A stretch of DNA of 64,000 nt, taken from assembly GCF_032854445.1 (NCBI RefSeq), contig NC_088303.1:6517501-6581500 (forward strand), read 5' to 3'. Position 1 is the first letter of the stretch. Each line of letters begins with the position of its first letter. A program made the translations under genes and the position numbers. The notes below the pieces were generated by a model. It had not been told where the DNA came from and made no database searches. It worked only from the letters and a program-made list of their open reading frames with translations. Shown here piece by piece: positions 117 through 61,970 of the stretch. The DNA comes from Liolophura sinensis. Its lineage: Eukaryota; Mollusca; Polyplacophora; Chitonida; Chitonidae.

Positions 117-177
<61 letters not shown>

Positions 178-2512: not shown

Positions 2513-2710
2513 CCCTTTAAACAAAATTTTAGGGGTGGTATCTCAATACGGCATGTATTGAGCTGAAGTTTGATGTGGTTATAAAGCACAATGTCGCATG
2601 GGGGATGTACCATCGCTCATGCTGTGTGTGCACATTAATTGATGTAATTTACCAAATTCCACAATTTCAGTACTTTATGTAAGGGCCAGGCCTGAAGTTG
2701 TGCATTAATG
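2513..2710 (+). repeat. Dispersed ~190-bp repeat in a JARID2 intron (also 6296-6500)
   Basis: The segment from AACAAAATTTTAGGGGTGG to GTGCAAATTC shares a chain of blocks with two tandem units in an intron of the V-ATPase gene at about 34795-35150: TTAGGGGTGGTA, TATTGAGCT, AAGCACAATG, GGGGGATGT and ATTCACAATTTCA. It has no coding potential. It is probably an unclassified non-autonomous or satellite-like repeat. Confidence 0.6.
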
Positions 2711-3133
2711 TGCAAATTCTTTGGTAGCCTTGCTGCCAAATCTAAGTTCAGCATAACAGTTTGTACTGGTTACACCATTAGTGCTGATTTTAAGTTACAT
2801 GTGCTATGAAACATGCCTGTGTACATTGCTGGTCTGTATTCCTAATACTCCCATCTCATGACTTACAGATAGGTGGGATTGAAGTGGACCTGCCCAAACT
2901 ACTACACACCATGCAGGTGTTTGGAGGGGCTCAGAACGTTGGTGACAAGAAGACCTGGATCAAAGTCGCTGATGCCATGAAAATTCCTAAACTTGTAAGC
3001 TGTATAGTTGCTGAGGGAATAATCCCTCGAATAGTCACTGCACATGTCCAAATCTTAGGCATTAGGTGACCTTAATAAGCCTATACTAGAGATTTTTGTC
3101 AAAAAATCACTCTCTGTCCAATAAAATAGCTCA

Positions 3134-3333: not shown

Positions 3334-4073
3334 ACAATAATGCTAAATTTTAAGCGGATGATTTCCAGTCCATGCATTGCGATGGTCTAACCTCTAGGCC
3401 AGAGGCAAACATGTGGCCTTTGATGTGCAGTCTCATTTTGTTTACCCAGGGCAGTGATCTTCATGCCGTCTTCACAAGGTATTTTGTTGCAAAAATTTGT
3501 TTGAGCTGCAAAGATGAGGGCCTACAATTTTTCAGCAAGCTGTTATAATATAGATGTATTTTTGTAGGTTTATTTCAATAAGTTCACTGTAGGCCCTAGG
3601 CATAGCTTTTTGAGGGGAAATAAATGTCTTTCGACAAAAGTGTATCGCATGTCCAGTAAAATTCGGATCTAATGAAGCAGCAGAAAAAATATGGAAGGTT
3701 GATTCCAAGTACTCTGCTACACCATTATTTTTGTGACTTTTTTTTCCTAAAATTTTGCGAGATACCCCCCCCCCCTTGCACTCTCCCCCTTTGCAACCTC
3801 TTGTCTAAACACACTCAAAATTTATTGAGAAACCCTGTTGCATTTCTCAATACCTCTCTAAGGGGAAGGGCATAGCTGTTGTATGAATATCTTATGGTCA
3901 ACAGGTATCTATTTTAATACATTTCCATCCAGAAGTGTATGATACAGCTGTCATATATATATATATATATATATATAATCCAGAAGTGTATGATACAGTT
4001 GTCATAAATACATATATATATAAATTTGTATATAAACGTGTACCATATTTTGTGTTTCTTTGCCTCTCCCCAG

Positions 4074-4276
4074 CTCTCAGTAGCACCCCTTCTAAGGAGA
4101 AAGCTGACACCCCTACAAATTTCCCAGCCCCAGAGGATGGAGGCCATATTGTGGAGGTACCTACATTCTATCCCAGTGCTAAAGAGTTCCTGGACCCGCA
4201 TCAGTACATAGCATCCATACGATGTCAGGCTGAGCCGTATGGGATGTGTAGAGTTGTACCCCCTGCCTCGTGGAAG
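4074..4276 (+). CDS. JARID2: JARID2 exon with the JmjN domain (intact copy)
   Basis: This 203-bp exon begins with the last two bases of a codon and ends in phase 0 before GTGAGC. After a Ser/Thr/Pro-rich start it encodes the JmjN core ([20 protein letters not shown], then GMCRVVPP and SWK). JmjN packs against JmjC in jumonji proteins. The acceptor follows a clear pyrimidine tract (CTCTCCCCAG). An almost identical exon lies at 271-473. Confidence 0.93.
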
Positions 4277-21935: not shown

Positions 21936-23575
21936 AAAAAACACAACATACATGTACACCACAAACAAAAATAAATACACACACGTACATGTACATTATA
22001 TACATACAGTAATAAAACACATACACTTGCGTGTACACTACTGCACATACAATAATAAATATGCAGACCTACGTGAACACTACATGTGTACATCATTATC
22101 AGAGGGACATCCCCTGCAGATATTATACAAACATACATTCTGTGTGTACATTGCATTCATGATCATTATAAACAGAAACACACAACAGTGGTTTGCATTC
22201 CCATTACATTGTGGTTTGCTTTATGGTACACTTTAACCTGAAAATTGAACATGTTGAGTATATCATTAGCCATGTGTCAGCACATGTAGGTGAAAGTGAT
22301 ATGTGTTTTCAACAAGGACACAACTTTTTTGTTATTTTGCCTGCATTACTTTGAAAAAGTAACAGGATTCTTGCTTCAAAAGTGTTTCTTCTTAGCCAAA
22401 TCTAAATTTTTATGGTGAATCGCTATTGGTCTGAAAACTAAATGTATAGCCTGGTAGATATTATTTTTTCAAGGTGACATTCTGATACGTTTATATTTCA
22501 TGGCTTCTAGCAAAACATGTGTATATTACATGGGTATATATATATACATTCCATGGTGCTTCCTGTTGGTGAATACTGGTGCTTTGTTAACTTGTAGACA
22601 GGGAGGACATTTTATTAATCTAATTATGCAATCCATTATTACATCCAAGTTGCTAGGTGGCAACCTGTATGAGTTAGAATGTTTTAATTACATATATTCA
22701 CAAGTTGACAGTTTGCAATAAATAATACTATGTAGGTCAGTCTACTGTTTGAAGAAGTTTGCCAGGTACATGTGTACTGAAGGGAGATAATTTTTTAGTT
22801 GTTATTATTGCTTGGCCTACATAAGAAAATCATATTATTTGTAATTATTTTTAGTTGGCTTAGTGTGAGATCTTACAAACACTGTGCGGGTAATTCGGGG
22901 ATAGGTGTGCACAGTGGTGTGTAATTTTTGTCAGATTATGAAGACGTAAGGTAATCATGTTACACATACTTGTCTATTTGGACCAGTCTGTACGTTGTAG
23001 TAATTCTTTAAAGCTTTCTTCAAAAATACAGACGGTACCTAACACAAAAGTCGAGTGCAGTAGCCCACATTGATGTGCACGCCTCCTGTCTCCCAATCTA
23101 GGTTAATGAGTTCTGCTGTTAGTCTTGGAAAACATCACAATTATCTGCTCCTGTGTTGCAAGTTCAACATGCACAAGAACATGTGACTGTAACAATTTTA
23201 TAAGTAATTTGACATGTATTTGGATGAAAGATTCTGTACTTTATTGACATAAAAATGTGACGATGTGTGTACACATGTACATGTACAGCTGTAATTATAA
23301 CCTGTATGCAGTTGTACCCTGTACAAAGTACTGCGTGACATATTTTTGAAGACCTGAGTGCCTTAACACAAGTCATTCAAGGACTGCTGTAACATTACAG
23401 AATTTGCCATGAAAGTTTTGTTTTTATAACTAATGGACAAAGATAAATGGGGCTGTCTTTCATTGTGTGTGTGGCACTCAGCTGCAGTTTAGTATACACA
23501 TGCACATGCATACTGTGTAATCATCTCTTCTCTTTTTAATGACATTTTATAACTGTATTTTGATTGTTACTTGTA

Positions 23576-26500
23576 GATGTATGTGTCCCAGTGTGCTGAC
23601 ACATGTATATGATGGTCACCCAAATCTCACATGTACATGTATGTGTCCCAGTGTGCTGACACATGTTTATGATGGTCACCCAAATCTTACATGTACATGT
23701 ATGTGTCCCAGTGTGCTGACACATGTGTATGATGGTCACCCAAATCTCACATGTACATGTATGTGTCCCAGTGTGCTGACACATGTATATGATGGTCACC
23801 CAAATCTCACATGTTGATGTATGTGTCCCAGTGTGCTGACACATGTATATGATGGTCACCCAAATCTCACATGTAGATGTATGTGTCCCAGTGTGCTGAC
23901 ACATGTATGATGGTCACCCAAATCTCACATGTACATGTATGCATCCCAGTGTGCTGACACATGTATATGATGGTCACCCAAATCTCACATGTACATGTAT
24001 GTGTCCCAGTGTGCTGACACATGTATATGATAGCCACCCAAATCTTACATGTACATGTATGTGTCCCAGTGTGCTGACACGTGTACGATGGTCACCCAAA
24101 TCTTGCAGGTAGATGTATGCATCCCAGTGTGCTGACACATGTATATGATGGTCACCCAAATCTCACATGTTGATGTATGTGTCCCAGTGTGCTGACACAT
24201 GTATATGATAGCCACCCAAATCTTGCAGGTAGATGTATGTGTCCCAGTGTGCTGACACATGTATATGATGGTCACCCAGATCTCACATGTATGTGTCCTA
24301 GTGTGCTGACACATGTATATGATGGTCACCCAAATCTCACATGTAGATGTATGTGTCCCAGTGTGCTGACACATGTATGATGGTCACCCAAATCTCACAT
24401 GTACATGTATGCATCCCAGTGTGCTGACACATGTATATGATGGTCACCCAAATCTCACATGTACATGTATGTGTCCCAGTGTGCTGACACATGTTTATGA
24501 TGGTCACCCAAATCTTACATGTACATGTATGTGTCCCAGTGTGCTGACACATGTGTATGATGGTCACCCAAATCTCACATGTACATGTATGTGTCCCAGT
24601 GTGCTGACACATGTATATGATGGTCACCCAAATCTCACATGTTGATGTATGTGTCCCAGTGTGCTGACACATGTATATGATGGTCACCCAAATCTCACAT
24701 GTAGATGTATGTGTCCCAGTGTGCTGACACATGTATGATGGTCACCCAAATCTCACATGTACATGTATGCATCCCAGTGTGCTGACACATGTATATGATG
24801 GTCACCCAAATCTCACATGTACATGTATGTGTCCCAGTGTGCTGACACATGTATATGATAGCCACCCAAATCTTACATGTACATGTATGTGTCCCAGTGT
24901 GCTGACACGTGTATATGATGGTCACCCAAATCTTGCAGGTAGATGTATGCATCCCAGTGTGCTGACACGTGTATATGATGGTCACCCAAATCTTGCAGGT
25001 AGATGTATGCGTCCCAGTGTGCTGACACATGTATATGATGGTCACCCAAATCTCACATGTAGATGTATGTGTCCCAGTGTGCTGACACATGTATATGATG
25101 GTCACCCAAATCTTGCAGGTAGATGTATGCATCCCAGTGTGCTGACACATGTATATGATGGTCACCCAAATGTTACATGTACATGTATGTGTCCCAGTGT
25201 GCTGACACATGTATATGATGGTCACCCAAATCTTACATGTACATGTATGTGTCCCAGTGTGCTGACACGTGTATATGATGGTCACCCAAATCTTGCAGGT
25301 AGATGTATGCATCCCAGTGTGCTGACACATGTATATGATGGTCACCCAAATCTCACATGTAGATGTATGTGTCCCAGTGTGCTGACACGTGTATATGATA
25401 GCCACCCAAATCTTACATGTACATGTATGCATCCCAGTGTGCTGACACATGTATATGATGGCCACCCAAATCTCACATGTACATGTATGTGTCCCAGTGT
25501 GCTGACACATGTATATGATAGCCACCCAAATCTTACATGTACATGTATGTGTCCCAGTGTGCTGACACGTGTATATGATGGTCACCCAAATCTTGCAGGT
25601 AGATGTATGCATCCCAGTGTGCTGACACATGTATATGATGGTCACCCAAATCTCACATGTAGATGTATGTGTCCCAGTGTGCTGACACATGTATGATGGT
25701 CACCCAAATCTCACATGTACATGTATGCATCCCAGTGTGCTGACACATGTATATGATGGTCACCCAAATCTCACATGTACATGTATGTGTCCCAGTGTGC
25801 TGACACATGTATATGATGGTCACCCAAATCTTGCAGGTAGATGTATGCATCCCAGTGTGCTGACACATGTATATGATGGCCACCCAAATGTTACATGTAC
25901 ATGTATGTGTCCCAGTGTGCTGACACATGTATATGATGGTCACCCAAATCTTACATGTATGTGTCCGAGTGTGCTGACACATGTATATGATGGCCACCCA
26001 AATGTTACATGTACATGTATGTGTCCCAGTGTGCTGACACATGTATATGATGGCCACCCGAATCTCACATGTAGATGTATGCGTCCCAGTGTGCTGACAC
26101 CTGTATATGATGGCCACCCAAATCTTGCAGGTAGATGTATGCGTCCCAGTGTGCTGACACATGTATATGATGGCCACCCAAATGTTACATGTACATGTAT
26201 GTGTCCCAGTGTGCTGACACATGTATATGATGGTTACCCAAATCTCACATGTACATGTATGTGTCCGAGTGTGCTGACACCTGTATATGATGGCCACCCA
26301 AATCTTGCAGGTAGATGTATGCGTCCCAGTGTGCTGACACATGTATATGATGGCCACCCAAATGTTACATGTACATGTATGTGTCCCAGTGTGCTGACAC
26401 ATGTATATGATGGTTACCCAAATCTCACATGTACATGTATGTGTCCGAGTGTGCTGACACCTGTATATGATGGCCACCCAAATCTTGCAGGTAGATGTAT

Positions 26501-27033
26501 GCGTCCCAGTGTGCTGACACGTGTATATGATGGCCACCCAAATGTTACATGTACATGTATGTGTCCCAGTGTGCTGACACATGTATATGATGGTTACCCA
26601 AATCTTGCAGGTAGATGTATGCATCCCAGTGTGCTGACACATGTATATGATGGTCACCCAAATCTCACATGTAGATGTATGCGTCCCAGTGTGCTGACAC
26701 CTGTATATGATGGCCACCCAAATCTTGCAGGTAGATGTATGCGTCCCAGTGTGCTGACACATGTATGTGATGGCCACCCAAATCTCACATGTAGATGTAT
26801 GTGTCTGAGTGGCTGACACATGTACATGATGGCCACCCAAATCTTGCAGGTAGATGTATGCGTCCCAGTGTGCTGACACATGTATATGATGGCCACCCAA
26901 ATCTTGCAGGTAGTAGATGTATGTGTCCCAGTGTGCTGACACATGTATTGGATGGCCACCCAAATCTTACATGTAGATGTATGTGTCTGAGTGGCTGACA
27001 CATGTACATGATGGCCACCCATGGTGGCCATCT
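23576..27033. repeat. 3.4-kb array of 60-bp units
   Basis: About 57 units built on ATGTGTCCCAGTGTGCTGAC, ACATGTATATGATGGTCACC and CAAATCTCACATGTACATGT. Three main variants alternate in the last third (CTCACATGTACATGT, CTTGCAGGTAGATGT and GTTACATGTACATGT). Since 60 bp is 20 codons, frames stay open over 300-430 codons on both strands. A 57- to 58-bp variant (ACATGTATGATGG) marks repeats of a larger block. No start context, intron or conserved protein supports coding. Confidence 0.95.
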
Positions 27034-28049
27034 ACATGCATCTACAACTGGAGTCTTAAAGAATTTTTGAAATGTAACTCTAAAAGCATGATTTTAAAGG
27101 AAGTTAAGATAATTATGGCCCTGAAAGAAACTGAATATTTTTATGCACATTGTATATGTCTCAATTTAACACAGCTCTGTTTTATTCATATTTTCTGTTT
27201 CTGTTTGGTAATTTTTTGGAAGTGATGCCAATGATGAACTGGTTCGGAATATGGGACCAGTTTATTCAAACACTTTTAACAAATATTTGTTACTGTTGAC
27301 GTCACAACTGCAGACTAAATGATTTCCAAACTGGCCCCTGTGGCCTGGGGAAAACTGTAGTTTAAAGCATTTTTACCCCCAAGACCAAAGCGTAGTTTTT
27401 TTTTTTTTTTTTCAAATCTGTGTTAGAACAAATCCTAAACTGCATTTTAAAATAGGAATGTCAAATATTTCAGGATTTCTGAAAGATAATTTATGATATT
27501 CATAATAACTACACATGTGACTTACAAGAGATAAGTATGACTTGAAGATGCATTGTCAGCTGTTTAAGGTTATGTGGCAGCAAGAATTATCGGTACTATG
27601 TCTGAAAACTACTGAATATTATTGTTATTCTGTCAATCTTCCACAAAAATTTGTCATTGAAAAGTGTCTTCATTTATTTGAATTGTGATTGAAATAAGTT
27701 GCACAAACTTCAGTGTTTCAGCAAAAGCTCTTGTTTTCTGCAACAAGAACAGTAAAAATAGACTAAATATTACTCTTTTGCAGTAACTATTTGTTCAGTT
27801 TTGTGTCTGAGAAAATGTGGCCTGTTATACAAGAAAATATAGAAATACGCACATTTATGTTTTTTATGTGGTTTTTGTAAGTTTACAGCATAGACATATG
27901 GTGAGATGTGCAGGTACTTAATGCACAGAACAAAGTGAAGCAGAAGATTGATCTTTTTTCTATACAAACAAAAATCTACATTTGCCAAATATTTTTGGAG
28001 TGTTTGTGGTGGATCTTTTAATCTTAACCTACACTTGTTCAAAGGTCTA

Positions 28050-28203
28050 GCCATACGTGGCAAGGCCTGTAAGCAACCTGCCGATGGTCGTGGGTCTCCC
28101 CCAGGCTCTGACGGGATTCCACCCACCATAATGCTGGCTGCCATCGAAGATGTGAAATATTCTTGAGTACGGCGTAAAACACCAATCAAATAAATAAATA
28201 AAC
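28050..28203 (+). repeat. tRNA-derived SINE, 5'-truncated
   Basis: It starts at CCATACGTGGCAAGGCCTGT, then has CCTGCCGATGGTCGTGGG, CACCATAATGCTGG and TATTCTTGAGTACGGCG, and ends ATCAAATAAATAAATAAA. The sense orientation is given by the A-rich tail. Confidence 0.88.
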
Positions 28204-29194: not shown

Positions 29195-29351
29195 TAGTGC
29201 GAAAGAACGTGAGAAGGTGTGCAACAACCTGCGGATGGTCGTGGGTTTCCTCTGGGCTGTGCCCGATTCCTCCCACCATAATGCTGGCCGCCGTCGTATT
29301 AGTAAAATATTCCTGACTACAGTGTGAAAAACGTATCAAATAAAAATAAAT
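29195..29351 (+). repeat. tRNA-derived SINE, 5'-truncated, upstream of the V-ATPase gene
   Basis: It contains CCTGCGGATGGTCGTGGG, CTCCCACCATAATGCTGGCC and a tail GTATCAAATAAAAATAAATG. It is diverged in the TTCCTGACTACAGTGTG segment. It ends some 320 bp before the V-ATPase start codon, so it may border the promoter. Confidence 0.85.
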
Positions 29352-29399
29352 GTAGGGCGAAAAAAATACGGTCGCGGGTTGAACGTATGATTTCGATCA

Positions 29400-29674: not shown

Positions 29675-32600
29675 ATGGAAATGTATTTCAACACCGACCA
29701 TGGGTATTTAGAAGGTTTGATAAGAGGTTTTAAAGGTGGTATCCTGAAACAGTCGGATTATTTGAATTTAGTCCAGTGCGAAACATTGGAAGGTAAGGTG
29801 TCCCTGTGCGTGCTGTGATTATAAAGTGTCCATAATTCGATACACCGATAATGTATTATAATTTATTGTTCATTTCTTGGGTTTTAGGTCTTGGTTTTTA
29901 GCAGTTACTGGTGATAAGTAGTTTGTAATTGTTATCAGTTATGTTCGCGCTTGATGTTGAAATAAGATGTTCTTTTTTTTTTTTGGCTCAAGTCGTACAG
30001 ATTCTTCTGTTGTTGGGTACATATCACTAGTGGGGCCACATGTCTCTTTGGTCTCTGCTAACTGTCTAATACCTTGCTTTGCGGCACAGATTTAATGTTG
30101 ACTTTGAGATAAAGTTGCTCTTTGTCGTGGCGTTAGGTTACTGTCCATAGTACCAGTGCTATTTCCCTATAGAAAATGTTGGTTATTTTATACATTTATT
30201 CCGTCGAATAAATGGTTTTCACATGCATTTGTCAAATACAAATTTGAAACGCTTCTTAAGTAGTCATTGTAAAGAATTTGAACATTTACATATGACTGTA
30301 TTTTGAATGTTACTCTGAAGATCTAGGTACCATTCTACTTCTATATCATTTGTGAACCAAACATTGTGTTTACATGTAGGTCATAGCTGACACTATATAA
30401 CAGTTGTATTAGTGCTAGGTCATTACTGTGTGGCTTATGTACCAGTATCTATCAGCACACACATTCATTTGGTAAATAGCAGTAAATACTCCAGCCAGGA
30501 GTACATAAATATAAACTAGTTTATACATTGTAATACATGTTGTACTGTATTTCTGGTTGAAAACAACTCATTTAAATTAAAAGTTAGAAGGATCTATGTG
30601 CGTAATTTATTATTGTCTGCTGTATTTATTACTATTTACTTGACTTGAGTTTTGTACAGTAGTCAAGAATATTTCACTTACATGTATACAATTGTGGTGT
30701 GCATTATGGTAGGAGGAAACCGGGCAGAGGCCCGGGGAAAATCATCGGCTGTAAACACAGTTGATAACTCTATCACTTGTAACTTAATATCACAGTCCCT
30801 CAAATTCCTGTTTTTCTTAAACACTTAATAAGGTCACCAAACTGCATGCTTGCTTTGGCAACCTTGTGTTGATGAACAACTTTACAATTCTAAGTGATCC
30901 ATGTTGGAAATCGCCTTAGGCTGTTGGGAAACCTCGCTGGCTCTGATGGTTCAAGTGCTGGATTGCTGTGACTGCAAGTCTCAGGCCTTTTTCCAATGCG
31001 GTTACATGTTCAAATCCAGCTCTTACTACTTTGGCTGTGGATTGTCTAGACGTTTGTCAGATACATGTATCTGGCTTACGTGGGCCAAATGCCCACTGGC
31101 TTTGTTGGGCCGGCCCAGGAGTTACATGTATATATGCTAACTGGGAGAGTGAAGTGTTTTCTTCTGGATTGTTTTTCTTGAATTCATAATTTTTTTAAAT
31201 GGATATGCAGCATAGAGTTCTTATTTTTTATTGGGCATCTCTTTTCCAACAGATTTGAAGCTCCACCTACAGAGTACAGACTATGGCAGTTTTCTGGCAA
31301 ATGAACCTTCTCCTCTGACTGTGTCTGTCATTGATGACAAGCTGAAGGAGAAGTTAGTTGTGGAATTTACCCACCTGCGAAACCATTGCCTAGAACCTCT
31401 CAACATGTTCCTGGACTACATCACGTGAGGAAGTAGATGTAGTACACAAGTCATATATAACTACCAATACATGTACATACATACCATTACATGTATACAT
31501 GTACACAAGTCATATATAACTACCAATACATGTACATACATACCATTACATGTATACATTTACACAAGTCATTCTGCTTGGAAAACCAGCTCTGATTTCG
31601 AGCTCTCTGGATTGCTTGTGATTTGTTGGGTACATATTTGTGATGAAGGGCTGTGGTTGTTCCGTAAATGAATGAACATGTCCACTCTTCAATACATCAG
31701 GAAAAATTCTTGAGTAGGGTCTTTTCATTATTAAAGTATTAAACCGATGAAATGAATATACTGTGTTACACCTAAAATTTAGAATGTAAATGCGCATTTT
31801 CAGAAACACTTGAAGGCCTTAAATGATACTTTTGATGCCAACACCTGTGAAATTAATCAAATTTTATAGAAACTTCTGAGCGGATGAATCAATCAGAATT
31901 AAGAAAAATTTGTCACTTGCAAAATACCAAAATTTAGGTGGATTACCATCTACTTGGTGTAAAACCGACATGGTTCACGTATCTGTTCAGTATGATGCAT
32001 TGTTCTGAAAAGTTACTACATGTGATCTTCAGTCAGTCTATTCATTGCTGACTTAAGAGACAGATTGAACTCTGATGGGTGTGGCTTTTTTCTGATTAAC
32101 ACCTGTGAGCAATACAAAACATAAAATGCTACATGACCATCTTGTGTAAAGGGTAAAATAGTATTACACAATGTTCCTGGATATTGGAATGTTGAGCAAA
32201 TGTATTAGCTTGTTAGACACAGTGACACAGACGGTCAGAATGTCCGTGTTGAAAGGCTGACGTGGACAGACATTTATATGAACAAAAATCAAATAAGTAA
32301 AAAAATTAATACAAGTTTGTCATTTGATTTGTACAGGTACAGCTACATGATTGACAATATCATCCTGCTGATCACAGGCACCTTACACCAGAGGTCCATC
32401 TCTGAGCTGATAGCCAAATGTCACCCCCTGGGCAGCTTTGAGCAGATGGAGGCCATCCATATAGCCAGCACCCCAGCTGAGCTGTATAATGCTGTACTAG
32501 TGGACACCCCTCTAGGTCTGCTATCATCCACCAAGACTGCTATTAGTGGCAGTTGGTTTGAAGCAACAATGTGTTGTTTATTCAGATAGGAAATATGACA

Positions 32601-37784: not shown

Positions 37785-37995
37785 ATTGGCACAGTTGGTG
37801 TAGTGGATAGAACATATGCGTCATAAACAGTAGTTCTGAGGATCAATCTCGAATCACGTCCTACCCAAAATAGGCATTCTTGGTACTTGCTGGTCCCGTG
37901 TCAACTATCATAATATCATTGGGTGGTGTGTTGTGTCTGGTGTCTGACATTCCAGTGAGGTAGCACTATATGATGAATGTCATCACTGGCCTGCT
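37785..37995 (+). repeat. tRNA-derived SINE of another family
   Basis: The head TGGCACAGTTGGTGTAGTGG is a clear tRNA A-box region, and GAGGATCAATCTCGA stands where the B box would be. The body (TGGGTGGTGTGTTGTGTCTG, GTGAGGTAGCACTATATGAT) is unrelated to the main SINE family. It abuts an inverted main-family SINE at 37998. Confidence 0.6.
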
Positions 37996-37997
37996 AC

Positions 37998-38226
37998 ATT
38001 TATTTATTTCATTGGTGTTTTACGCCATATACCCAAGAATATTTCACTTGTGCGATGACAGCCAGCATTATGGTGGGAGGAAACCAGACAGAGCCTGCGG
38101 GAATCCTGTGACCATCAGCAGGTTGCAGAGCTCACGTATGGCTGGGTAGGAAACCAGCATGACTGGAACTTTAACAAAGCGAATGCATTGGTGACAGGTT
38201 CCTCAGCCATTGTGCTGTGCTGGCTA
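37998..38226 (-). repeat. tRNA-derived SINE, near full length, inverted
   Basis: It reads ATTGGTGTTTTACGCCATAT, CATTATGGTGGGAGGAAACC, CCATCAGCAGGTTGC, GTAGGAAACCAGCATGACTG and GCATTGGTGACAGGTTCC, covering the tail, body and decayed tRNA head of the family in reverse. It ends at a long run of C (about 38227-38252). Confidence 0.85.
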
Positions 38227-38260
38227 CCCCCCCCCCCCCCCCCCCCCCCCCCACCCCCTC
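38227..38260. repeat. Poly(C) run
   Basis: About 26 consecutive C followed by ACCCC and TCCCCC. It marks the end of the inverted SINE and is a likely site of length error or polymorphism. Confidence 0.95.
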
Positions 38261-39339
38261 CCCCATAGACATAGGCATAGACACTGTTATATGACCAAAT
38301 AATGTTGACAGCAGCACCAAATCTCAATCAATCAAACAAACACAGTTGGACTGTGGGTATAAATCCAGGCATTGTTAGTACATTACCTGATGCATGATGC
38401 AGTTGTTTAGTCCACCTGCATACTTGTAATCCTAACCTCTGTAGAATAGGTTAGCAAGTGCTAGTAAGTAAATAAATGCTTTATTGAAACCTATATTGAA
38501 TGAGTAAATAAATGCATTTAATACAGGAATTAATATAGGAATTCATACAGTGAAGTCAAAAATATTAAGTATATTTCAACCTATGATAGCATCTCAATTC
38601 AGAAAGTGATACAAGAATACCACATATTTAATGAGGCCAATAGGTAATTAAATTAAATGTGCGATCAGTCTTGAATAATTCTTGTATGTAGACATTTATG
38701 CACATGTAACTTGATCTGCCTAACTAAATATAGATCTGAATTAAACGCCATTAGCTTTGATTTCCTTTCAGGAGGGTAATTGAGACAGGGGAAAGGGGAG
38801 GGGGCATGTGAACTGTATTTTTTTTATTTTAAGTACAATAAAATACCTATGACCAAAAGAAAAATTATTTCCATCGCGGTGAAAATATTTTTCCTTCAGT
38901 GCGGTATGACTATGAAAAAAATATTTTCTTCTGTAAAATATATCTTTGGCATTTACATGTATATAAAAAGACTGATAGTGTATGTAAAACAAAATAAACT
39001 TTAATTGTAAAATAATAATAATAATAATCTTTTACCATAATAAAAAAGAAATTTAATCGCGTTTGATTGACCACGATGCCGCAAGGAGTAGCCCTACCCT
39101 ACATGTAGGCCTACCATGCGCACGGGGTATATAGAAGAGAGAAAAAATTCCATTGAAGTAGCATGGTACCAATAAGCCACTGTACATAAGCAGCCTAAGT
39201 ATGCTTTTCTCTGGTAACTTGAAAGAGGCCTGACGGGGCTTGTTCTTCTTGTTTTGTGAGGTAAACGGGCAGCCTCTGTCAGTTCTTTTTGTTGTTTGTT
39301 GTTATAACGACTACGGAAATTCACGACATTTACCGAGGC

Positions 39340-39447
39340 CTGTTAAAACGGAAGTGACGTTTCCCGGAAAGGGTTTATAACGCATGCCAAAACTTCGACC
39401 GTAGCAACGGCAGACTGTCATTTCTGTGGAAGCAAGAAGCAAACAAG
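39340..39447 (+). promoter_or_regulatory. Probable promoter and 5' UTR of the roadblock gene
   Basis: CGGAAGTGACGT at 39349-39360 combines an ETS site (CGGAAGTG) with a CRE half (TGACGT), a pair often seen in TATA-less housekeeping promoters. A second CCGGAAA follows at 39364. A TTATAAC stretch lies at about 39376. The start codon is 88 bp after the ETS/CRE element. Function is inferred from motif and position. Confidence 0.5.
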
Positions 39448-41598
39448 ATGGTAAGTGACCATGCAGTTAGTTATTGTACAGTATTTTGCGCAGTTTTTCA
39501 AGAAAAGTTATTCATTTGAGCTACTGTCAAACAGCGATTGGCGTGGTGGCCCGCTGAGTATTGAATCAAGACGTTTTCAAAGACGTCCTGTGATGTCGCG
39601 ATGACTAATTCGCCTTGGTGGGCTCTGAAATGGGACACGTCGTGTTGTAAATGTTGTGTTTTGTTGTGGAATTCTGATCTGATTTACACTGAATATACAG
39701 TGATAATTCATGGTTTGTTTTGGTTAGTACTTTAAATGTTGCAGCTGTCACTTTAATGAGAGGGGACTCTGTTTTCTGTGAGATTTTCACTGCGTTCCAT
39801 CACATACTTGTGGGTGCCAACCACTTCACCAAGTTGCTCAAGGCACTTTTTATCTACATGGAATTTGACTTGAGAGATTGTAATGCATATACATGTGAAT
39901 TTAATTCAGTACGACACCATAGCTCTGCGTAAATGTGTAGGGGATTGCACATGTATTATAGCTGCCAGATTGAACTCCGCTGCATCGGTGATTACCTGCG
40001 TGCAGTACCCTATCCGATGCCAAATTCACCTTGGTTACACTCGGGGGACTTTTCCCTCCAATTGTCTACTGTACGAACTGAGGATGGTGCTTTTTTTAAA
40101 GTCTGACATAAATGTTATTTGATGATTATGAAGCACCACTGCAGCTTATATTAAGATAGTACATATATTGTACTTTATTAATATTGTAATACAGTTTGCA
40201 AAGCAGACGTAAAATTAGAAATTTTGTACAATGGCTGCTCATGTAAACATTTTGAGGTGCTCTGTCTGAAAGGTTGGTGCGCCTGTGAACCCAAACACCC
40301 TTGACTTCAAACCCTGCAGTTGCTGAAATCTGACAAGTAGAAGATTGAGTAATTTTCATTTTCAGTGTCCATTTTTTTTCACTTTTTACTCTATTAATCT
40401 ATTAAATAAAGGTAATTTCTGTTTGCCTTTGTGTTTCAGTCTGAAGTAGAAGAAACTCTTAAGAGGATTCAAAGTCACAGAGGTGTAATTGGAGTTATTG
40501 TGGTCAATAGTGAAGGTATTTATGATCACTTTGCATTTATGTAGCAGCTTAACATAAAATCAGTTTTGACAAGACTTAAGTAAAGAGTGCAAGTGGCATT
40601 CAGCAATGATTTTTGTAGAATTACATGCTTATGTTGTATATTTTGTCTCCAGGCCATTTTTACAAGAGTTTATGTACAGTTTAAACTGTAAAATTTAGAC
40701 ATGGATGCAAAATTGCAGGTTTCATGTACTTGTGAATTGTAATATGAACCAACATGCACTTCACATGTTTACGTCTGCATTTTGTCCACTAAAATGTTTT
40801 AGAATGTTGGAATGAATAACCATCTTGTCATGCAGTAGTCTGGATGTGATTAAATTGACTCAGTTGTCATGTACAACCTGTTACTTGTATAAATTGATGG
40901 TGCCATTCACAAACTCATTGTTTGTGTGTAAAGGTATTCCAATCAGGACGACATTAGACAATGCAACCACAGTACAGTGTGCTGGACTGATTCATCAGTT
41001 GACAGCCAAAGCCAGGAGTGTTGTTCGAGACATTGACCCTCAAAATGACCTGACATTTCTTCGAGTGAAGTCAAAGAAGCACGAGATTATGGTAGCACCA
41101 GGTAAGAGGCTATTTTATTTCTCAAAACATTCTGTAAAATGGAATATATATTAAAGAAAACTAAGTTATAATTTACTTGTTATAAGCTTGATTTTATGTT
41201 AGAAATAAGAAAAAAATTCTATATGCAGACATTTAAAAATTTAATTAAGTGCTTATCAGAATTTTATTTTCTTATGCAAAAGTTGTGAAGTTTGGAATTA
41301 GTAGGAAATAGGATAGTACTTTTGTCATTCAGATCACTCTCTGCTCGAGGACAGTAATATATTGTGAAATACTTTTGATCACTAATGTCAGTGACTATCA
41401 TTGTCTTTCATGTTTAACATGCTATGAGTAGCTGGCTTTGCTGCATGAATGTCTTAAAATTACTATATATATATATGTATGTATATACTGTGCACCTGTC
41501 TGTCCCCAGTCCATCAGTTGCTGATTCCCTCTCTCTTTTCTCTCTGTACAGACAATGAGTATTTGTTGATTGTGACCCAGAACCCAGATGCTTCATAA
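39448..41598 (+). CDS. DYNLRB1: Dynein light chain roadblock-type, complete, 4 exons
   Basis: This encodes 97 residues of the roadblock/LC7 light chain, a non-catalytic cytoplasmic dynein subunit that dimerises on the intermediate chain. The exons are 39448-39450 (only the initiator ATG, followed by GTAAGT), 40440-40515, 40934-41101 and 41552-41598 (TAA at 41596). Landmarks are [65 protein letters not shown] and [15 protein letters not shown]. Human DYNLRB1 is 96 aa, and the alignment by eye has no gaps apart from the tail. DYNLRB1 and DYNLRB2 cannot be separated in an invertebrate. A homologous alternative last exon lies downstream at 42054. Confidence 0.95.
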
Positions 41599-42053
41599 AG
41601 CATGAGGTGTAGCTGATGAAAGCCTTGTTACTGATAATCTACATCATTGCCAGTTATCTGTCAACCACATCCTTCAGCACCAGTTCTGCCCAATACTACT
41701 CGTTTCATATAATTTTTTACTAATTGCTTGCCTTTTTTTCTGTAATTAACTGCTTTCTGTCTGTGATATATTTTCATTTCCTCTCATTATTTCATTATTT
41801 TCAGTAGCTTATTCACTTTTACCCTGTTTGTTATCTTGGCAGTTTGATGTGTTAGAGTTTACCATGATGCAGACCCTGCTCTGCCAGTGTCTGTCATTGG
41901 TGTTTATCCATCATTCTATTTGCTGTGACATAGACAGCTTTGAGCTTTTGTGTGTTCCATGCATTTTACCAACCAAGTTTTTAGATTTTTATGTGTTTTA
42001 ATTGTGGCTCTTTATTTAATCTTGTCCTTGTTTTGTTTTCTTATTACTTACAG

Positions 42054-42088
42054 ACAAGGAATACCTCCTTATTGTCTTGCAACAGTGA
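42054..42088 (+). CDS. DYNLRB1: Alternative terminal exon of the roadblock gene
   Basis: After TTATTACTTACAG the sequence AC AAG GAA TAC CTC CTT ATT GTC TTG CAA CAG TGA reads (D)KEYLLIVLQQ and stops. Its phase is the same as that of the exon at 41552, whose product begins (D)NEYLLIV. Spliced from the donor at 41101 it gives a 93-aa protein that ends LLIVLQQ instead of [11 protein letters not shown]. The first eight residues cover the last beta-strand of the roadblock fold. No frameshift is seen. Its use needs transcript support. Confidence 0.65.
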
Positions 42089-42500
42089 TGTCCATTTAAA
42101 GAGCAGATCCAATTCCACATTGAAGTCTCCAAAATATTTGTATGGCTACTTCCGAGTACTCCCACTTTTGATCTTTGTACATATTAAATCTTTTCTTCAT
42201 GTATTACATCTTGCATAAACAAAGTTAAGATGTCATGCCATCATATAGAAGTCCTGAGTAATGTAAACAGAACAAATTGTGTTGCACGCATATGAGATCT
42301 GTTGGTATGTCATTTATTTGGAATATTAAGATGCAGTCGCTGATGTCATCAGCCAGAATATCCAGCCTTGAGAAAACATGTCAAAATGGAGGACCATTTA
42401 CACAACATGTTTCATTTTAGGTGGCAATTTGTTTGGGAGTATTTATTTATTTTCCAAAATGTCTTCATTTGTTGTATTACTATGAAATAAATCTCGATGT
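42089..42500 (+). terminator. Roadblock gene 3' UTR with poly(A) signal
   Basis: AATAAA at 42486-42491 (within TATGAAATAAATCTCG) is the best signal after either terminal exon. The region is AT-rich without coding features. Confidence 0.6.
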
Positions 42501-42639
42501 AAAATACTGAAGTATGTTTTAGGTGGTACGATCTCAGAATTTGTGAGTGTTGTATAAAGGGGAAGAACTCCCGAGTCCGCGTGAAAGTTTGTGAATGAAG
42601 AGTGTTCTCCCTTGAAATCAGATTCTAATGTCCACCCAT

Positions 42640-43761
42640 CTAAAATAGAAATGTACCTAATGCCTCCGTTGAGATTACACCTCTAATACACTTGAGCGCT
42701 ACAAGGATAGTAGTCATGGGTTCGTCAGTCTTCCCGACGCTGGATGACGCGAGGCATAAGCTGATACACGGGACTTTTAGCATACCCAGACGATGAGACT
42801 CCAGTTTCATCCTTTTTTTGTCATTTGCCAAACAAAGAGCGGTGACCTGCTTTGCCTTCAACCGTACGGAAACGCCATCGCTTGCCTTGGCACGCGATAA
42901 CATCTTCGAACTCTCTTTTCATGCTGTCTTTTGTAGGCGCCGCCATGTGAAATTCATTAGTTAATACGTGAGTATATAGTTCATTTTTATTTTGTATGGT
43001 TTGGATTGAGATGCAGGTAGGTGCTTGATTTTTTTACCATTGGTACGGATTTAGACTCGAGGAATTTGAAAATACTCATTAAATATTTGATACTCTATTA
43101 ACAATTATCCCCAATGGTATAAAATCAAGCAACTACCCGCATTGAAATAATCAAAAACATCCAAAATAATAATAAAACTATTTACTCATATATTAACTAA
43201 ATATGTTAAATATTAAGGTATTCAACATGGCGGCGCCCACGAAAGACGGCATGAAAAAATCGCGTATGCCAAGGCAAGCAGTAGCGTTTCTGTAGAGTTA
43301 AAGGCAAAGCAGGTCACCGCTCCTCCGTGCGGCATATAGGAAAAGGGGTGTCACTGCAGTCTAATCGACTGGGTATGGTGAAGGTCTTGTATATCAGCTT
43401 ATGCCTTGTGTCATACAGCGTCGAGAACACGGTGAAGAACTGACGATAACTGTTGTAGTATGCCCAGTGAATTCTGTCGTGCAAAATCAAGTGGTAAGTG
43501 TGTAAATGTATTTAAATTGCTATGGTTCAGCTTGAGCAAGGACGGAGATGGTAATAATACCCACGGACGCCTGTAAATAGCGCACTGCTCAACAGTTCGA
43601 TATGTTCGCCATCACATGCAGTTGCTAACATAAGGCGAAAGTAGTCCTCTCAGATCGATTGACGTAATGCATGCGCCTCGCTTTCGACGTCGCTGTTGTA
43701 AATAGTATGGTGCCCAGTCTATTAGAGATTTAATCTCGATGGAGGTGCTTCTCTATTTTAG
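42640..43761. mobile_element. 1.1-kb foldback element with long inverted arms
   Basis: The left end CTAAAATAGAAATGTACCT and right end AGGTGCTTCTCTATTTTAG are inverted repeats. The left arm is about 42640-43043, the loop about 43044-43110 and the right arm about 43111-43761. Arm blocks that pair include GGTAGTTGCTTGATTTTATACC near the loop, GGCGCC..CATGT, GGTCACCGCT..GCAAAGCAGGTC and the terminal GAGATTAAATCTCTAATA. The left arm lacks some 250 bp present on the right. There is no transposase. Clear target-site duplications were not found. Confidence 0.8.
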
Positions 43762-45009
43762 AATGCTATAAATAAAGATATCTTCTCGTAGCAGTAGCCT
43801 ATGTATTTCAGCCGGAAGCGTGCGTGCAGTTGTAAGGAGTATTGGCTTTTCATCGCATACGTGAAGTGACCTACACTTTCGCCCCTGAACTTAATTACAC
43901 TTTTTGCCTGATACTGAGTGTTTTAAGGATCTTGGAAAGTTGGTTTTGAAGTTTGTTTGAAAGGTAGGAGATCAGCAACAAAAGTGTGTGACGTCTTGTC
44001 TTATTGTTTTGTGACCTAGAAATGTAAACGTCTACTGTAAATGTATATTATGAGCTCAGATTGGAACGTCTCGAAACATTTCTTTTTCAACGTAATGGCG
44101 ATTGGTTGTAAAATATAAAAAAAAGAAAAATGTAAAAACAAAAGAGATGTCTATGAACTGTGCGAAATAACACTTTTATCACTAAAGTAAATTTCCATAT
44201 TACGCCATTATATAAATCAAGAAGCAAATATAACAAGTGAAATAAACAAGTAGACAAACCCAGTTCTTTTATTTGTAGACATAAACAGCATTAAATGATA
44301 TCCGGTGAGGTGAATGTACCGGACTGTGTTGCGTGACACATGGTTCGAAAGGTCATCTTTATTTAATATGTATACTAACAGCTTTGGTAGAATTATGGTG
44401 TAACGGGTCAAAAAGTTTCCTAGATCACCGGACAATTAACCATATACTAGTTGTTTCCATTATGTGTTCAATTTTCTGTTCCATTATGCACCCAGGCCAT
44501 AACTAGATGGAACCCGATTTTTCCCTCACGTAGGCAATGGCGCTGATACATTACCTGTTTGCCGACGAATCGTCGTCACGAAGGCGGGACTGAACGAGCT
44601 AGGTGCACTGGCCGAGAAAAGCAGATAGTGTACTTTAATGGACTGAACATCAGACCACACAGTTCTTAGGCCTGAATTACTCCGGAATTGGGCTTATGTG
44701 GTGTCGTATCCAGTTGAATGTACTTGCATTCATGGATTGGAATTTTCGGAGCTTCAATGCAAAAGACTCCTAGGCCTCTACATACAGTTTTAATATTAAA
44801 CTGATATGTTAGACGAGAAAGAGTGTATGTAGGCATTTGTGGTTGTCCGACCATGGACAGGGTATTACAGATTCTCCCCCTCTTACTGTATTGTGCGGCA
44901 TTGGTGACAGTAAAGGATTGATAACGTTCATGTTGTCGTGACCAAAAGTTAGCTGATCACCACGTGTCTACCATCTATAATATAGTGTGCATGCCTGTAT
45001 ACGTCACAC

Positions 45010-47794: not shown

Positions 47795-47970
47795 TACTCA
47801 TGCTGGCTTCCTCCCCAGCCGTAGTTGGGAAGGTCTATCAGCAACCTGCGAATGGTAGTGGGTTTCCTCCGGCCCCTGCCCGGTTTCCTCCCTCCATAAT
47901 GCTGGTCGCCGTCGTATAAGTAAAATATTATTGAAAACGGCGTAAAACGTCAATCCAAGAAATGAATAAA
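47795..47970 (+). repeat. tRNA-derived SINE, 5'-truncated
   Basis: It contains CATGCTGGCTTCCTCCCCAG, GGGAAGGTCTATCAGCAACC, TGGTAGTGGGTTTCCTCCGG, CTCCATAATGCTGGTCGCC, and a tail GTCAATCCAAGAAATGAATAAATA. Confidence 0.85.
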
Positions 47971-48604
47971 TATAATACATGACTGGTTTACCTACAAATC
48001 GTCATCGTAGGAATGAACAATACATAGCTTTGACCTGAAGTCTTTAGGTGGGAACCGTTATCCATTGTTCGACAGTTTTCAAATTCCAACCTGCTTAAAG
48101 AGCTGATTGTTTTTGCTATGATAAGGAAGATATTGAGATGTACTAATGTCTAAAGCTTTCTCATATTTCTTAATTTCATATATTTCGAGCGATGAAAGAA
48201 ATAGAGCTGGACTTTTGACATATTGAAAAACGTTTGGTCTATGTCAAAAATATTGTCAAGAGTTGCACAGGAATTAGGTACAACTGTTTTTGTGAAAACA
48301 ATACAGCACGAGTTTGGCTTTCAGATGGGCTGAAATTACATGTGTGTGACAGGAAACATGGAATAAAATGGCAAAAGCAGCCATGGAGCCAATACATAGT
48401 GGATTGACAGTCAAAAGTACTCAAATACTAGTATCTGAAATGGATACGTTTTTAATTAATCCTTGATACTCTCCTTGATCATTGCACACTGTATTGAACA
48501 CTGGCAGTATGACGATATGGTAAAAAAGTGACTTTCCGCCGTCCGTGTCTGCCTATCCCTTGTCTGCATCACAACGGCTGATTATCAGCCTCTGCCCGTC
48601 GTGT

Positions 48605-52334: not shown

Positions 52335-52602
52335 GAGACCTCCGTGGCTCAGTTGGTTAGCGCGCTAGCGTAGCGTTATGACCAAGGAGCCTCTCACCAG
52401 TGCGGTCGCTATGAGTTCAAGTCCAGTTCATGCTGGCTTCCTCTCCGGTCGTACATGGGAAGGTCTGCAGCAACCTGCGGATAGTTGTAGGTTTCCACCG
52501 GCTCTACCCGGCTTCCTCCCACCATAATGCTGACCTCCGTTGTATTACTGAAATATTCTTGAGCACGGCGTAAAACATCAATCAAATAAATAAATAAATA
52601 TA
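52335..52602 (+). repeat. tRNA-derived SINE, near full length, reference copy
   Basis: The head CTCCGTGGCTCAGTTGGTTA has a good A box and GAGTTCAAGTCC a B box. The body runs CATGCTGGCTTCCTCTCCGG, GGGAAGGTCTGCAGCAACCT, CCCACCATAATGCTGACC and TTGAGCACGGCGTAAAAC, and the tail is ATCAAATAAATAAATAAATA. This copy defines the family. I believe similar elements (bivalve or metazoan tRNA SINEs with a conserved central domain) are known in molluscs, but the exact name is not certain. Confidence 0.9.
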
Positions 52603-54321
52603 TCCCAGCGTCTTCTGCGGAGCCACCACATAAGAGGTTAATGCAAGGTACCAGACATTACTATTCTGCACAGACGAGGAGCCCAAAAAATCGTACAGCA
52701 CATTTGATTTCGTTTCACATTGTAACTTTGCCATTCGAATCGAGGTACATGTTTTCAACTATGCAGATAGGTATGTAGCCAGTATACAAGCGGTGCTCAG
52801 ACGGTATGTAGGCGATGGATGGCTTAATACAATATTAACTGTAGCGTCGGGCTCTTCTGATGCTATATTCTTATTTCGACAGTTCTGACATAAGCTCGAG
52901 AAAAGCGCATCCTAGATACCACAAAATTATCGTGATTATTTTGAGCTATCCATTGGGAAGGATAACAGAACAAAGAAACCAGTAAATCTTGCTTGGACAT
53001 CCTTATGATGTGGCTGAGCTTTATACAGTGCTAGTCCCAAAACTGCATTATACATGTACCTCAGACCAGTGAAATCCGTGAACGGCGGAGCGGCCGGAGT
53101 AAATGTCTGTCTGGGGAATGGTTGGCGTGTCAAGCAGCGATTAGCAGGGATCACCGGAAGTTCATCCTCCCCAGGAGTCCCAAGTGACTGGAGATGCGAA
53201 GACCACCTTGTCAATGGTGGACAATTTAGGAGAACTCAGGACATATTAGGACTGCTAAAATGAGCCAAACAATCGTACTAAGATGACTGGATTGGGGTCT
53301 CGGAGGGTATTTACGTGTAACTGAGATTTTTGCATTTCTCATGCCTGATGGAAGCGTTCAAGAAGTTTGGAAGTTTATTCCTTCTCAGGTACCTGCCCTA
53401 AAACACTGTGGTTCGAAGATGGCCATTTTCGGAGCGGTACAAAAAATCAATACACAGCGTTAAAATGCTATACTTCGTGTCTGAGTTATTTAGATCGGGA
53501 TTGTTGTATGCTTCGTGGGGTTTGACTGAAATGTACCACTGGGTATCCGACACAAAATGTTCAGGGCATTCTTGGAATTAGTGTAGAAGTCTTCTAATCT
53601 CATTTGTCATGGTGACGGAGTGATCTCACATAAGTTACACTTCCTTTGATTGACAAGTCCGTGTTTTTATTGTGCGCTATAGCCAAGAACCTCAGGTATT
53701 GAATTAGCATTCGTAAACATGTAGATACCCACAGGAGGAGGGATTTTCTGCGAAACCTACACGGATATGGGTTTACTGATGACAGTCATATTCTGGCATA
53801 TGGTGAGCTTTCTCAGTGTAAATACATCATTGTAAAAAGTACACCATCGCTGTAATCTATCTGACGCTGGCCATCTTCTCGCCACCAGAGACCTGAACCG
53901 AGGGACAACCACGAGGGAATGATGCTTGCATGCTTTGTTTGTTTATTAGTGTGGTGAACTTTTCTGTTTTTATCTCCATCTATCACTCTGTTTTCTCTGT
54001 CATTATGTGGTTAAATGTAACCTTCACTATCGTGTACAGCTGTGTATCCATGAAAAATAAGGAATGCCACAGAAAATTTCATTACTCATACTGGAGACAA
54101 TGTTACCACACGTACCGGGATCACTTACGGGTTACGGGAAGCATACAGTTGTCTATAGCTTTACCGTTATTCAGTGTTATTTGTGCAATTGCTATTTCAT
54201 TTCAATTCCAATTTAAATTATCACCACGCAGGAATATGTGATCGGCCTAATTTACTAAATGAATCGTAACAGCATGCTGTAAAATGAACTCACATTTACA
54301 CGCACAACAGCGTAATGCAAG

Positions 54322-56452: not shown

Positions 56453-57601
56453 TCACTGTCCCCTCGGGGTGAATAGGTTTACTTGTATTGATCTACCTAC
56501 CTCTTTAACTGGGATGGCTGTGTTCACAAGGAAGCCTTCATCAAGGTCCTGTTGGACAAAGTACTTAGAGTGAGGACCTTTTCCCATCTTGAACTTGGCC
56601 CCCGAGGGCAAAACTGAATTGATATTCCAGCAAACGTATCGGGCAAACTTCCTCGGAACATGGGAAATGTCCGTGTAATAGAGTCTGAAGCTCAGTGTCT
56701 GGCCGTTCAGATCGCTCTCAATAAGCCAGGCTTGTTTGTCACGATCGTAGAAGTGAGCACGGTTTCGTCCATGGGTTATCGGTTCCAGAATGACTTCGCT
56801 CACAGCGGTCACCGACAGCATGTGCACCCGTATTTTCATTTTTGATCTCCCTTGGGTGACTTCGTGGAGGGGCGCGCCAACCACGTAGCCCATACCCGAT
56901 CCCGATATGTCAAAGGTTTCTTCGAGGACATTGGAATCGTATTCATACTCCTCTCCCAGAAATATTTGATATCTTAGGTGACTGAGATGGTCGAAGCTAG
57001 TGTGACGGTGTAAATGAACGACGGCCTTACCCTCGGTCTCGCCCGAGTCCCCAAATGGATATAGCGACACACCCCAATCATCAAGGCCAAACGAAAAATA
57101 AGTCGACTCAATGTGGTTATTGTAACCAGGTTTCAGATGATTGTCTTTTGGCAGTGCAAGAAGGCACTCGAAGGACGTAATAATGTTTCTCATTTCAAGC
57201 TCTACAAGAAATTCTCCGTTTTCTTGCATGAAATTCCTTACGGCCAACTCGTTCAAACATATAAACGTTTTGCGGCCATGAATGCAGTTCTCTATAGTAA
57301 AATCACAACCGGTTTCAATGAAGGATTCGTTTTTGGTAAAATGGTCTTTGTTCACCATGGTGAAAGAGTAATCCAGTTTGCAGGTCATGCCGGCTGCTAC
57401 CGTCCTTAGCTTGAGGTAAGAGCCTAGGTGCTTCTCCCCTTTCATAAAGGACACCGTCCATTTCTGATGACCGTAAGTGAAATCCTTAGAGTAAATGTCA
57501 TGAGCAAACTGCTCCTTGACCACGCGGTTTGGCAATAGGAAAGTGAATACCTGTGTGTCGAATCTGTCGTTGAGCTTCACATAACGGTACAATTTCGCCA
57601 T
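56453..57601 (-). CDS. MATH/TRAF-like beta-sandwich protein, single exon
   Basis: This is an uninterrupted 382-aa frame. I chose the ATG at 57601 (MAKLYRYVKLND), since the more upstream in-frame codon is only GTG and a TGA lies further upstream. Residues about 40-145 look like a MATH domain (W48, GEKHLGSYLKL, F80/N84, then FMQENGEFLVELEMRN). Residues about 168-270 form a second sandwich-like segment (DDWGVSLYPFGD, HRHTSFDHLSHLRYQIFLG). Residues 280-375 form a third, less clear. No BTB, RING or transmembrane segment is seen. MATH domains bind peptides, often as adaptors in signalling or ubiquitination. The pattern resembles expanded lophotrochozoan MATH-like genes and perhaps the C-terminal part of BTBD17-like proteins. 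It has no introns, so a retrocopy or an intronless family member are both possible. The specific function is unknown. Confidence 0.75.
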   Translation of the reverse strand: MAKLYRYVKLNDRFDTQVFTFLLPNRVVKEQFAHDIYSKDFTYGHQKWTVSFMKGEKHLGSYLKLRTVAAGMTCKLDYSFTMVNKDHFTKNESFIETGCDFTIENCIHGRKTFICLNELAVRNFMQENGEFLVELEMRNIITSFECLLALPKDNHLKPGYNNHIESTYFSFGLDDWGVSLYPFGDSGETEGKAVVHLHRHTSFDHLSHLRYQIFLGEEYEYDSNVLEETFDISGSGMGYVVGAPLHEVTQGRSKMKIRVHMLSVTAVSEVILEPITHGRNRAHFYDRDKQAWLIESDLNGQTLSFRLYYTDISHVPRKFARYVCWNINSVLPSGAKFKMGKGPHSKYFVQQDLDEGFLVNTAIPVKEVGRSIQVNLFTPRGQ

Positions 57602-58052
57602 GCTGTCCACGCTACTACAGTCTCCTTTTAATGCACTGCTTGAAACGAGTTTTCACAACGAACTGCTGCCCTCCTGGTGTGGTTTTACACACACAAAAAA
57701 TAATGCATTCATCAATCATTTATCTCAGTTCTCACCAACAACATCCTTGCCTGGTTATTCTTGCCAAAACCGTTTCCTTAGCGGAGACTTCGATGTCTGT
57801 GAGATTGTACTGGTGGGAGCCAGCGGCGGTGTTGGGATTACTGAAGGATAATACCCCTGTGAGCGACGAAAGCATCGATTCGTCGACACCTGGAACGTCG
57901 GCCTCTCCACCTTAACGTGTACACAAATGCCGCTTTTGACACTGGGCTGCTGGTTGGTTATAACACACGGGATAGTCCACCACATCTACCATTCGCTCAT
58001 CTGTCTTGTACGCCTTAATATGCTTTGCTCTTTCTCCGGGCTCCGGGAGGCG

Positions 58053-60572: not shown

Positions 60573-61879
60573 GCGGATTATTGTTTCCATCAGTCAAATA
60601 TACTGATACACTGGGAAATTAAATCGCACTAAAAATACGCCATGCTTCTAAACACATAGTCAAGAGTCTGCCATTTTTAAAGGCATTTTTGCATATCCCA
60701 AAAAGGCTTTTTGCTGCTAAGAGAGAGGGAGGGTGTTGAGTGTTATGGTTGTGAAGCTATGCTCAGAATCTTTCAAGACTGTCCATGGAGTTGTTACCTC
60801 CGCATTTATAAGTGAACACTAACAAATGATGTTGATGTGTCAACTGACATGTCGTGATACACTAGTCCACGGAACTGAAATCTGGCACAGATTTACATAT
60901 CTACGTCCAAGACGAAGGCATCACATACATAACAACGTGCTGATCCAAACTTAAGGCAGATGGCGTCACATGTTTTTTCCCAATAAAAAGCATACAACGA
61001 ATGATTCATTTCTTTTTTCAGACAATACCTTGACAAGACTATGACCGTAAATCAGATCTTACTCGTCGTGGGTCGGCAACGACTTTATCGAAAGCCCGTG
61101 CAGTATGAATTTATGGAGAGAGCTCTGTAATCTATTGCCTTTATGTAACTCCATTAGACCACTACTCCCCAGACAGATTAAAGGGAACAACCTCATTTGT
61201 CCGCGGAAACATCATGTATTTTATGTAGCTGTCATATATCTTATGATTAACATGACAATGGTCTGATATGGGCAAATTAGACAAATATGTGAATGTGTAT
61301 ATATGGGAAACGGCAGATCAATTAGGTTCTATCACGGCTTAAACTGCCACGCTGGGACTGATAATTTTCCCTTTCTATCACGACAGACAGATTATATTAC
61401 TGTGTAATCGCTGAGGTATTCCAAGATGAACTGCTGAAACTATAACATAATTAGAATTGCTTCCCACACAAAAACTGACAGAATCTCTTCTCCCACTAAG
61501 ATATTCATAATCGAAAACGTGTACTGTTGTATTCATTTCTGTGGCCTTTCAGGTGTTTTGTAAAATTTCTATTCCTATTGCACTTCAGATGCATTCGTTG
61601 TTTCAAGTACTTTCCTCTATATCTGATCCGTGAGGATTTCCATCTGGATATGTCGCTCTCGAGTTTTCAATATACATAAACAGTGAAGCGGCAGCACTTG
61701 TTTGGAAATGTCCTTACATACACGAGTCAATTAGATATTGGAAAAACATAAACGTTTACAAACAGCATTCCAAGAGAACATGTGGAAGTGTGTATTTGAT
61801 GGAAAGGGAACGCTGAAATAATTATAGAAGACCCCTTCTTCGATAGCATTCCGATTAACACTCCACTAATATAAGTTTT

Positions 61880-61970
61880 ATTATTTAATTGATTGGTGTT
61901 CCACGGCGCATTCAAGAATATTTAACTCAAGGCAGTCAGCATTATGGTGGGAGGGGCCCACGACCATTCG
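61880..61970 (-). repeat. SINE fragment, inverted
   Basis: It contains AATTGATTGGTGTTCCACGG, TTCAAGAATATTTAACTC and AGCATTATGGTGGGAGG, followed by CCCACGACCATTCGCA; a segment of the body is deleted. Confidence 0.75.

Follow-up and report, generated by a model that had tools for sequence, protein, structure and literature searches.

Similar terminal exons used as alternatives to one another are, as such, already known. In human CDC42, where the similar last exons 6A and 6B swap the C-terminal residues of a small protein, PTBP1 is described as repressing one of the two terminal exons via CUCUCU at -25 to -20 (PMC4745753). In Drosophila, pip and PGRP-LC are described as having tandemly duplicated 3' terminal exons or regions of which only one is chosen, and competing RNA structures are reported for such 3' cases (PMC9013439). 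A survey of human mutually exclusive exons had an internal focus and, as its method is described, sought partners for terminal exons only toward internal exons (PMC5740500); a copy behind a last exon would thus be missed by that method.

In animal dyneins, according to a review, roadblock clamps two intermediate chains together, and a roadblock heterodimer is reported there for two human axonemal dyneins, outer-arm and inner-arm f (PMC10886578). Vertebrates carry two roadblock genes, DYNLRB1 and DYNLRB2, given as 75% identical (PMC10886578, PMC10042829), and the effects of differences among roadblock forms are still poorly known. Like the original prediction for this DNA, which knew of no described roadblock gene with a duplicated last exon, we found no description of a duplicated or alternative last exon of such a gene in openly licensed PubMed Central text; this search covers such text, and a predicted isoform may already stand in gene annotation databases. 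Here we analyze a 64-kb stretch of chiton DNA, called the window at its full length, that holds a roadblock gene with two possible terminal coding exons, A and B. We judge that B is probably an alternative terminal exon of this gene and in use, and infer that it would be spliced today and share its 3' end with A.

The roadblock gene and its 3' end

The roadblock (DYNLRB, dynein light chain) gene extends on the + strand from position 39448. The coding part of its exon 1 is the ATG alone (39448-39450) and is followed by a GTAAGT donor from 39451, with a donor score of 13/15. Exon 2 lies at 40440-40515, matched at 100% across residues 2-28 by tblastn, and exon 3 at 40934-41101, within an open reading frame that matches Pfam Robl_LC7 with an E-value of 9.3e-13. 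The donor after exon 3, CAG/GTAAGA at 41101, is common to the two terminal exons. Exon A (41552-41598) begins at the acceptor TGTACAG/ACAATGAG, encodes (D) and 14 further residues, and ends with the stop TAA at 41596-41598, while exon B (42054-42088) begins at CTTACAG/ACAAGGAA, encodes (D)KEYLLIVLQQ, and ends with the stop TGA at 42086-42088. Once spliced, the A form would be 97 and the B form 93 amino acids long. The A protein, whose best PDB match is a roadblock-type 2 chain (E 1.8e-49), shows 84% identity with the roadblock-type 2 sequence and 75% with that of 3l7h, a chain that we take to be from fly. By these matches the A protein is clearly a roadblock protein, with a full-length Robl_LC7 domain close to DYNLRB1/2 (~96 aa). 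The gene itself and the GT-AG introns between its short exons fit an origin of the window in animal DNA. Rfam over 38000-45000 and ARAGORN over the whole window gave no matches.

To grade the acceptors we used the pyrimidines at -20 to -4, the base at -3 and the AG-free distance, on a simple scale made for this analysis. With the three features taken together, both acceptors fell within the top 0.3% of 3497 AGs: sites at least as good numbered 4 of 3497 for A and 8 of 3497 for B, its own site being counted in each. When the AG-free distance was dropped, A was matched by 5/3497 AGs and B by 59/3497; thus, B's tract alone is good, not rare.

The sequence between the two exons bears on how their transcripts would end. 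None of 11 poly(A) hexamers tested was found from A's stop to B (41599-42053), and a CATAAA at 41594 overlaps A's stop codon. AATAAA or ATTAAA occurs only twice in 41552-42800, each time 3' of B: the ATTAAA at 42183-42188, found by hexamer search, is a possible poly(A) signal common to A and B transcripts, and the AATAAA at 42486-42491, which is followed by sequence that appears T/GT-rich by eye, is the likely main one. Furthermore, no good donor was found between A and B, where the best candidate scored 7/15 on a simple consensus scale (maximum 15), the three donors of the gene itself scoring 13, 9.5 and 13.5. Strict alternative last exons would have a poly(A) signal between A and B; judged from hexamers only there is none, and A and B are therefore not classed as such. 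Most likely, A and B would compete as acceptors within a single terminal region and share its 3' end, which would place B inside the 3'UTR of A transcripts. If cleavage is taken to occur some 17 nt past one or other hexamer, the estimated 3'UTR is ~610 or ~910 nt after A and ~120 or ~420 nt after B. The 455 nt from A's stop to B would leave room for an uncommon signal, and A and B might then be two true terminal exons with their own poly(A) sites, chosen by alternative polyadenylation plus splicing. Given that none of the 11 hexamers lies in this stretch and that the CATAAA overlaps A's stop, we regard this arrangement as quite unlikely.

These observations agree in part with the original prediction. 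It had proposed two exons with good acceptors, the same phase after 41101 and their own stops, and the coordinates, phase and stops are as it gave them. It had also called them mutually exclusive terminal exons; homology and an exclusive choice hold, the latter because one donor can join one acceptor only, whereas the picture of separate terminal exons needs refining, with neither a hexamer nor a good donor between them.

The window contains several further features. Upstream of the roadblock gene and on the same strand, an open reading frame at 32209-32589 matches the V-ATPase C/AC39 (subunit d) family (Pfam E 7.6e-14), and directly 3' of the gene lies a palindromic element of ~720 bp (42720-43440; 70% self-complementary) that looks like a foldback or MITE-type repeat and to which a sequence at 10903-11628 is related at 74-77%. 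A dispersed repeat of ~130-210 bp, which we read as a short interspersed element, is present in both orientations and with 73-84% identity at six places (8960-9127, 28049-28202, 29207-29354, 37994-38203, 47798-47980 and 52385-52603), one copy being ~1.3 kb upstream of the roadblock ATG, and has shorter matches at 30623-30741 and 61874-61954. A tandem array at 23567-27021 comprises 57.9 copies of a 60-bp unit with 90% matches, and the long open frames on both of its strands are most likely by-products of the repeat. A direct repeat of ~3 kb (151-3133 and 3953-6912; 98% identical), the second copy of which includes a JmjN match at 4160-4261 in an open reading frame at 3887-4390, reflects either duplication of the segment in recent times or the assembly itself. 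Finally, a 399-aa open frame on the - strand (56453-57652) matches the MATH domain weakly, with E 5.3e-07 and 30.4 bits against a Pfam cut-off of 32.

Origin and past selection of exon B

After the 41101 donor, A and B are homologous short frames in the same phase, each with its own stop. We scored the in-phase peptide after every AG by BLOSUM62, with A's peptide and the roadblock-type 2 end as references. Among 3505 AG sites on the + strand, A ranked first and B second against both references. Against A's peptide B scored 38 and the third-ranked + strand site 23; the highest score among the 3433 - strand AGs was 22. Simulation of 60 first-order 64-kb sequences, with one strand scored in each, gave a top score of 30, so that B's 38 was reached in 0/60, and within the first 1500 bases of these sequences no score exceeded 24. 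With only 11 codons, B could in principle be an AG whose following open frame resembles A by accident; set against these scores, such a chance resemblance is scarcely credible.

Within the exons 18/32 nt are identical between A and B; over the 11 codons 14/33 nt differ, and 8/11 residues are identical. Being adjacent, apparently of common origin, in the same phase and with their own stops, A and B fit tandemly duplicated 3' coding exons. The intron flanks gave only short, chance-like matches and no duplicated flanks that could date the event; thus, the duplication would be either old or limited to the exon. A broader event can also be imagined, in which a second tandem roadblock copy lost its other exons and left B as its final remnant, now either borrowed by the intact gene or unused. 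Some animals do multiply roadblock genes, five to eight extra ones being given for Drosophila species (PMC2674883). However, tblastn over the 64-kb window found exons 2 and 3 only once (other matches E >=1.1), and the position of B, 0.5 kb past A and still ahead of the poly(A) signals, is what duplication of one exon would give; a decayed second copy is very improbable. Beyond the window, no relative was confirmed among viral contigs (4 + 145 pattern matches) or prokaryote contigs (267), where none are expected.

The codon pattern of the two exons was used to assess past selection on B. In the six codons of the core EYLLIV, 7/18 nt differ between A and B and 0 residues differ; path-averaged counting over the core gave 5 synonymous and 2 non-synonymous steps, the latter arising since leucine codon changes can go through other residues. 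Counted over all 11 codons, pS was 1.05 (saturated) and pN 0.28. When 14 random differences were put on A, EYLLIV was kept in only 24/400000 trials. We also simulated drift from A's own codons with a fixed mutation bias and with A held to synonymous change. With B neutral and A constrained, EYLLIV was kept with at least 7/18 nt different in 0/20000 runs at each of six depths. With A and B both constrained, at least 7 differences arose in 13, 117, 728 and 1717 runs per 20000 at 0.3, 0.5, 1 and 2 mutations/site/branch, respectively; the observed pattern is thus uncommon even with both copies constrained, at most 1717/20000. Because neutral drift yields the pattern in 0/20000 runs at each depth, we conclude that selection acted on B as a protein during most of its past. 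The original prediction had argued that diverged nucleotides with EYLLIV kept point to selection on both exons, and past selection at the protein level is supported by these counts and drift runs. The estimates are averages over history based on 11 codons, in which a recent retirement of B would leave no trace, and the pattern, while it supports B having been held as protein for most of its history, says nothing on its present use.

This distinction between past and present defines the chief rival of our reading, namely that B is a retired exon, long used and selected, and now an unspliced stretch of A's 3'UTR or one spliced only at noise level. B's tail stops short after LQQ, the 3'UTR inferred for A transcripts includes B, and retirement, if recent, would be invisible, 5562/20000 neutral runs keeping EYLLIV at 0.1 mutations/site. 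However, a longer decay would break the core, which was kept in 1641/20000 runs at 0.2 and in 45/20000 at 0.5 mutations/site, and in B no damage is seen to the core residues, the phase, the polypyrimidine tract or the AG. We therefore consider retirement unlikely, and favor a roadblock gene in which an old tandem duplication of the short last coding exon would have left two exons that remain in use. The 41101 donor would join either acceptor A (41552) or acceptor B (42054), transcripts of both kinds would end at the shared poly(A) signals 3' of B, and either choice would complete what we take to be the last core strand (EYLLIV), with a different tail and 3'UTR.

Splice choice and the two protein ends

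A's acceptor tract carries a possible basis for regulating the choice. It is CU-rich (41527-41551) and contains three CTCTCT words, a PTB consensus word, at 41529, 41531 and 41540, two of them overlapping. Two or more CTCTCT words within 40 nt upstream were found at only 3/3504 + strand AG sites, namely A, a second AG 8 nt past it with the same tract, and a site at 50012; no CTCTCT was found within 40 nt upstream of the acceptors of exon 2, exon 3 and B. Thus, as in CDC42, CUCUCU words lie just upstream of the acceptor that would be the candidate for repression, and by that analogy our hypothesis is that a PTB-like protein bound to A's CTCTCT-rich tract might repress A and allow B. The short PTB-like words TCTT/TTCT number 3 in B's tract vs 5 at A; since B's tract also has such words, selectivity for A would come from CTCTCT alone.

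We also looked for RNA structures. An inverted pair between the intron (41192-41216) and the B acceptor (42033-42057), 80% complementary over 25 nt, was set aside because its duplex energies do not exceed those of resampled introns. The fraction of 200 resampled introns that paired at least as strongly was 0.105 for A and 0.80 for B, so that the intron showed no element that pairs with the two acceptor regions more strongly than expected by chance, as competing RNA structures would require.

The two proteins would differ only from residue 84 on, the A form ending in TQNPDAS and the B form in LQQ. In the roadblock fold, the order of strands in the sheet is 2-1-5-4-3, and we take the last exon of this gene to encode the central strand 5 and the tail. 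Its place in that strand would explain why EYLLIV has been kept. The original prediction had put roadblock C-termini at the dimer and intermediate-chain interface, which this fold does not confirm: it would not of itself position the tail at the seam of the dimer. Of its first 10 residues B shares 9 with roadblock-type 2 and A shares 8, and B retains a K found in the aligned solved chains. B does not have the NP of the tail, which A shares with the solved chains; its absence could be a sign of early decay. In the solved roadblock-domain chain 7f8f_A, the match spans residues 6-93 of 94; since this chain ends one residue beyond the matched stretch, short tails do occur in the roadblock domain family. 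For MglB, a roadblock protein of bacteria, stimulation of MglA nucleotide exchange is ascribed to one protomer's C-terminal helix (PMC11016934), so that, by analogy only, roadblock tails can matter.

If B is used, the gene would provide a natural isoform pair differing in the last residues only, and with it a clean test of the role of the roadblock tail. It is a long shot that one gene here supplies two roadblock subunits, with the B form as second partner in a heterodimer like that reported for outer-arm and inner-arm f dyneins and the splice choice marking ciliary versus cytoplasmic dynein. In vertebrates, the heterodimer role could be filled by DYNLRB1 and DYNLRB2.

Comparison with known systems

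The locus is related to the Drosophila 3' cases in that, as in pip and PGRP-LC, the choice would be an exclusive one among duplicated 3' terminal exons or regions (PMC9013439). It differs from them in two respects: competing RNA structures are reported there, whereas no pairing was found in the roadblock gene, and pip is given as a UTR example, whereas A and B change the coding end (PMC9013439). In having two roadblock proteins for dynein in one animal, the chiton would resemble the vertebrates with DYNLRB1 and DYNLRB2 (PMC10886578, PMC10042829); there, two genes make the two proteins, whereas here it would be one gene with alternative ends.

The closest parallel is CDC42. There, similar alternative last exons swap the C-terminal residues of a small protein, as A and B would here, and in both genes CTCTCT stands just upstream of one acceptor, that of the exon repressed by PTBP1 in CDC42 (PMC4745753). 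Unlike A and B, between which no poly(A) signal was found, both CDC42 exons carry poly(A) signals according to the same paper (PMC4745753). Furthermore, the use of the CDC42 exons is backed by RNA evidence, whereas A and B are known from DNA alone, and the CDC42 swap alters lipid attachment, whereas the roadblock swap would alter a tail. For the roadblock tail, we know of no modification. Should B be in use, the small proteins that exchange their C-terminus through similar alternative last exons, CDC42 among them, would be joined by a motor subunit of high conservation.
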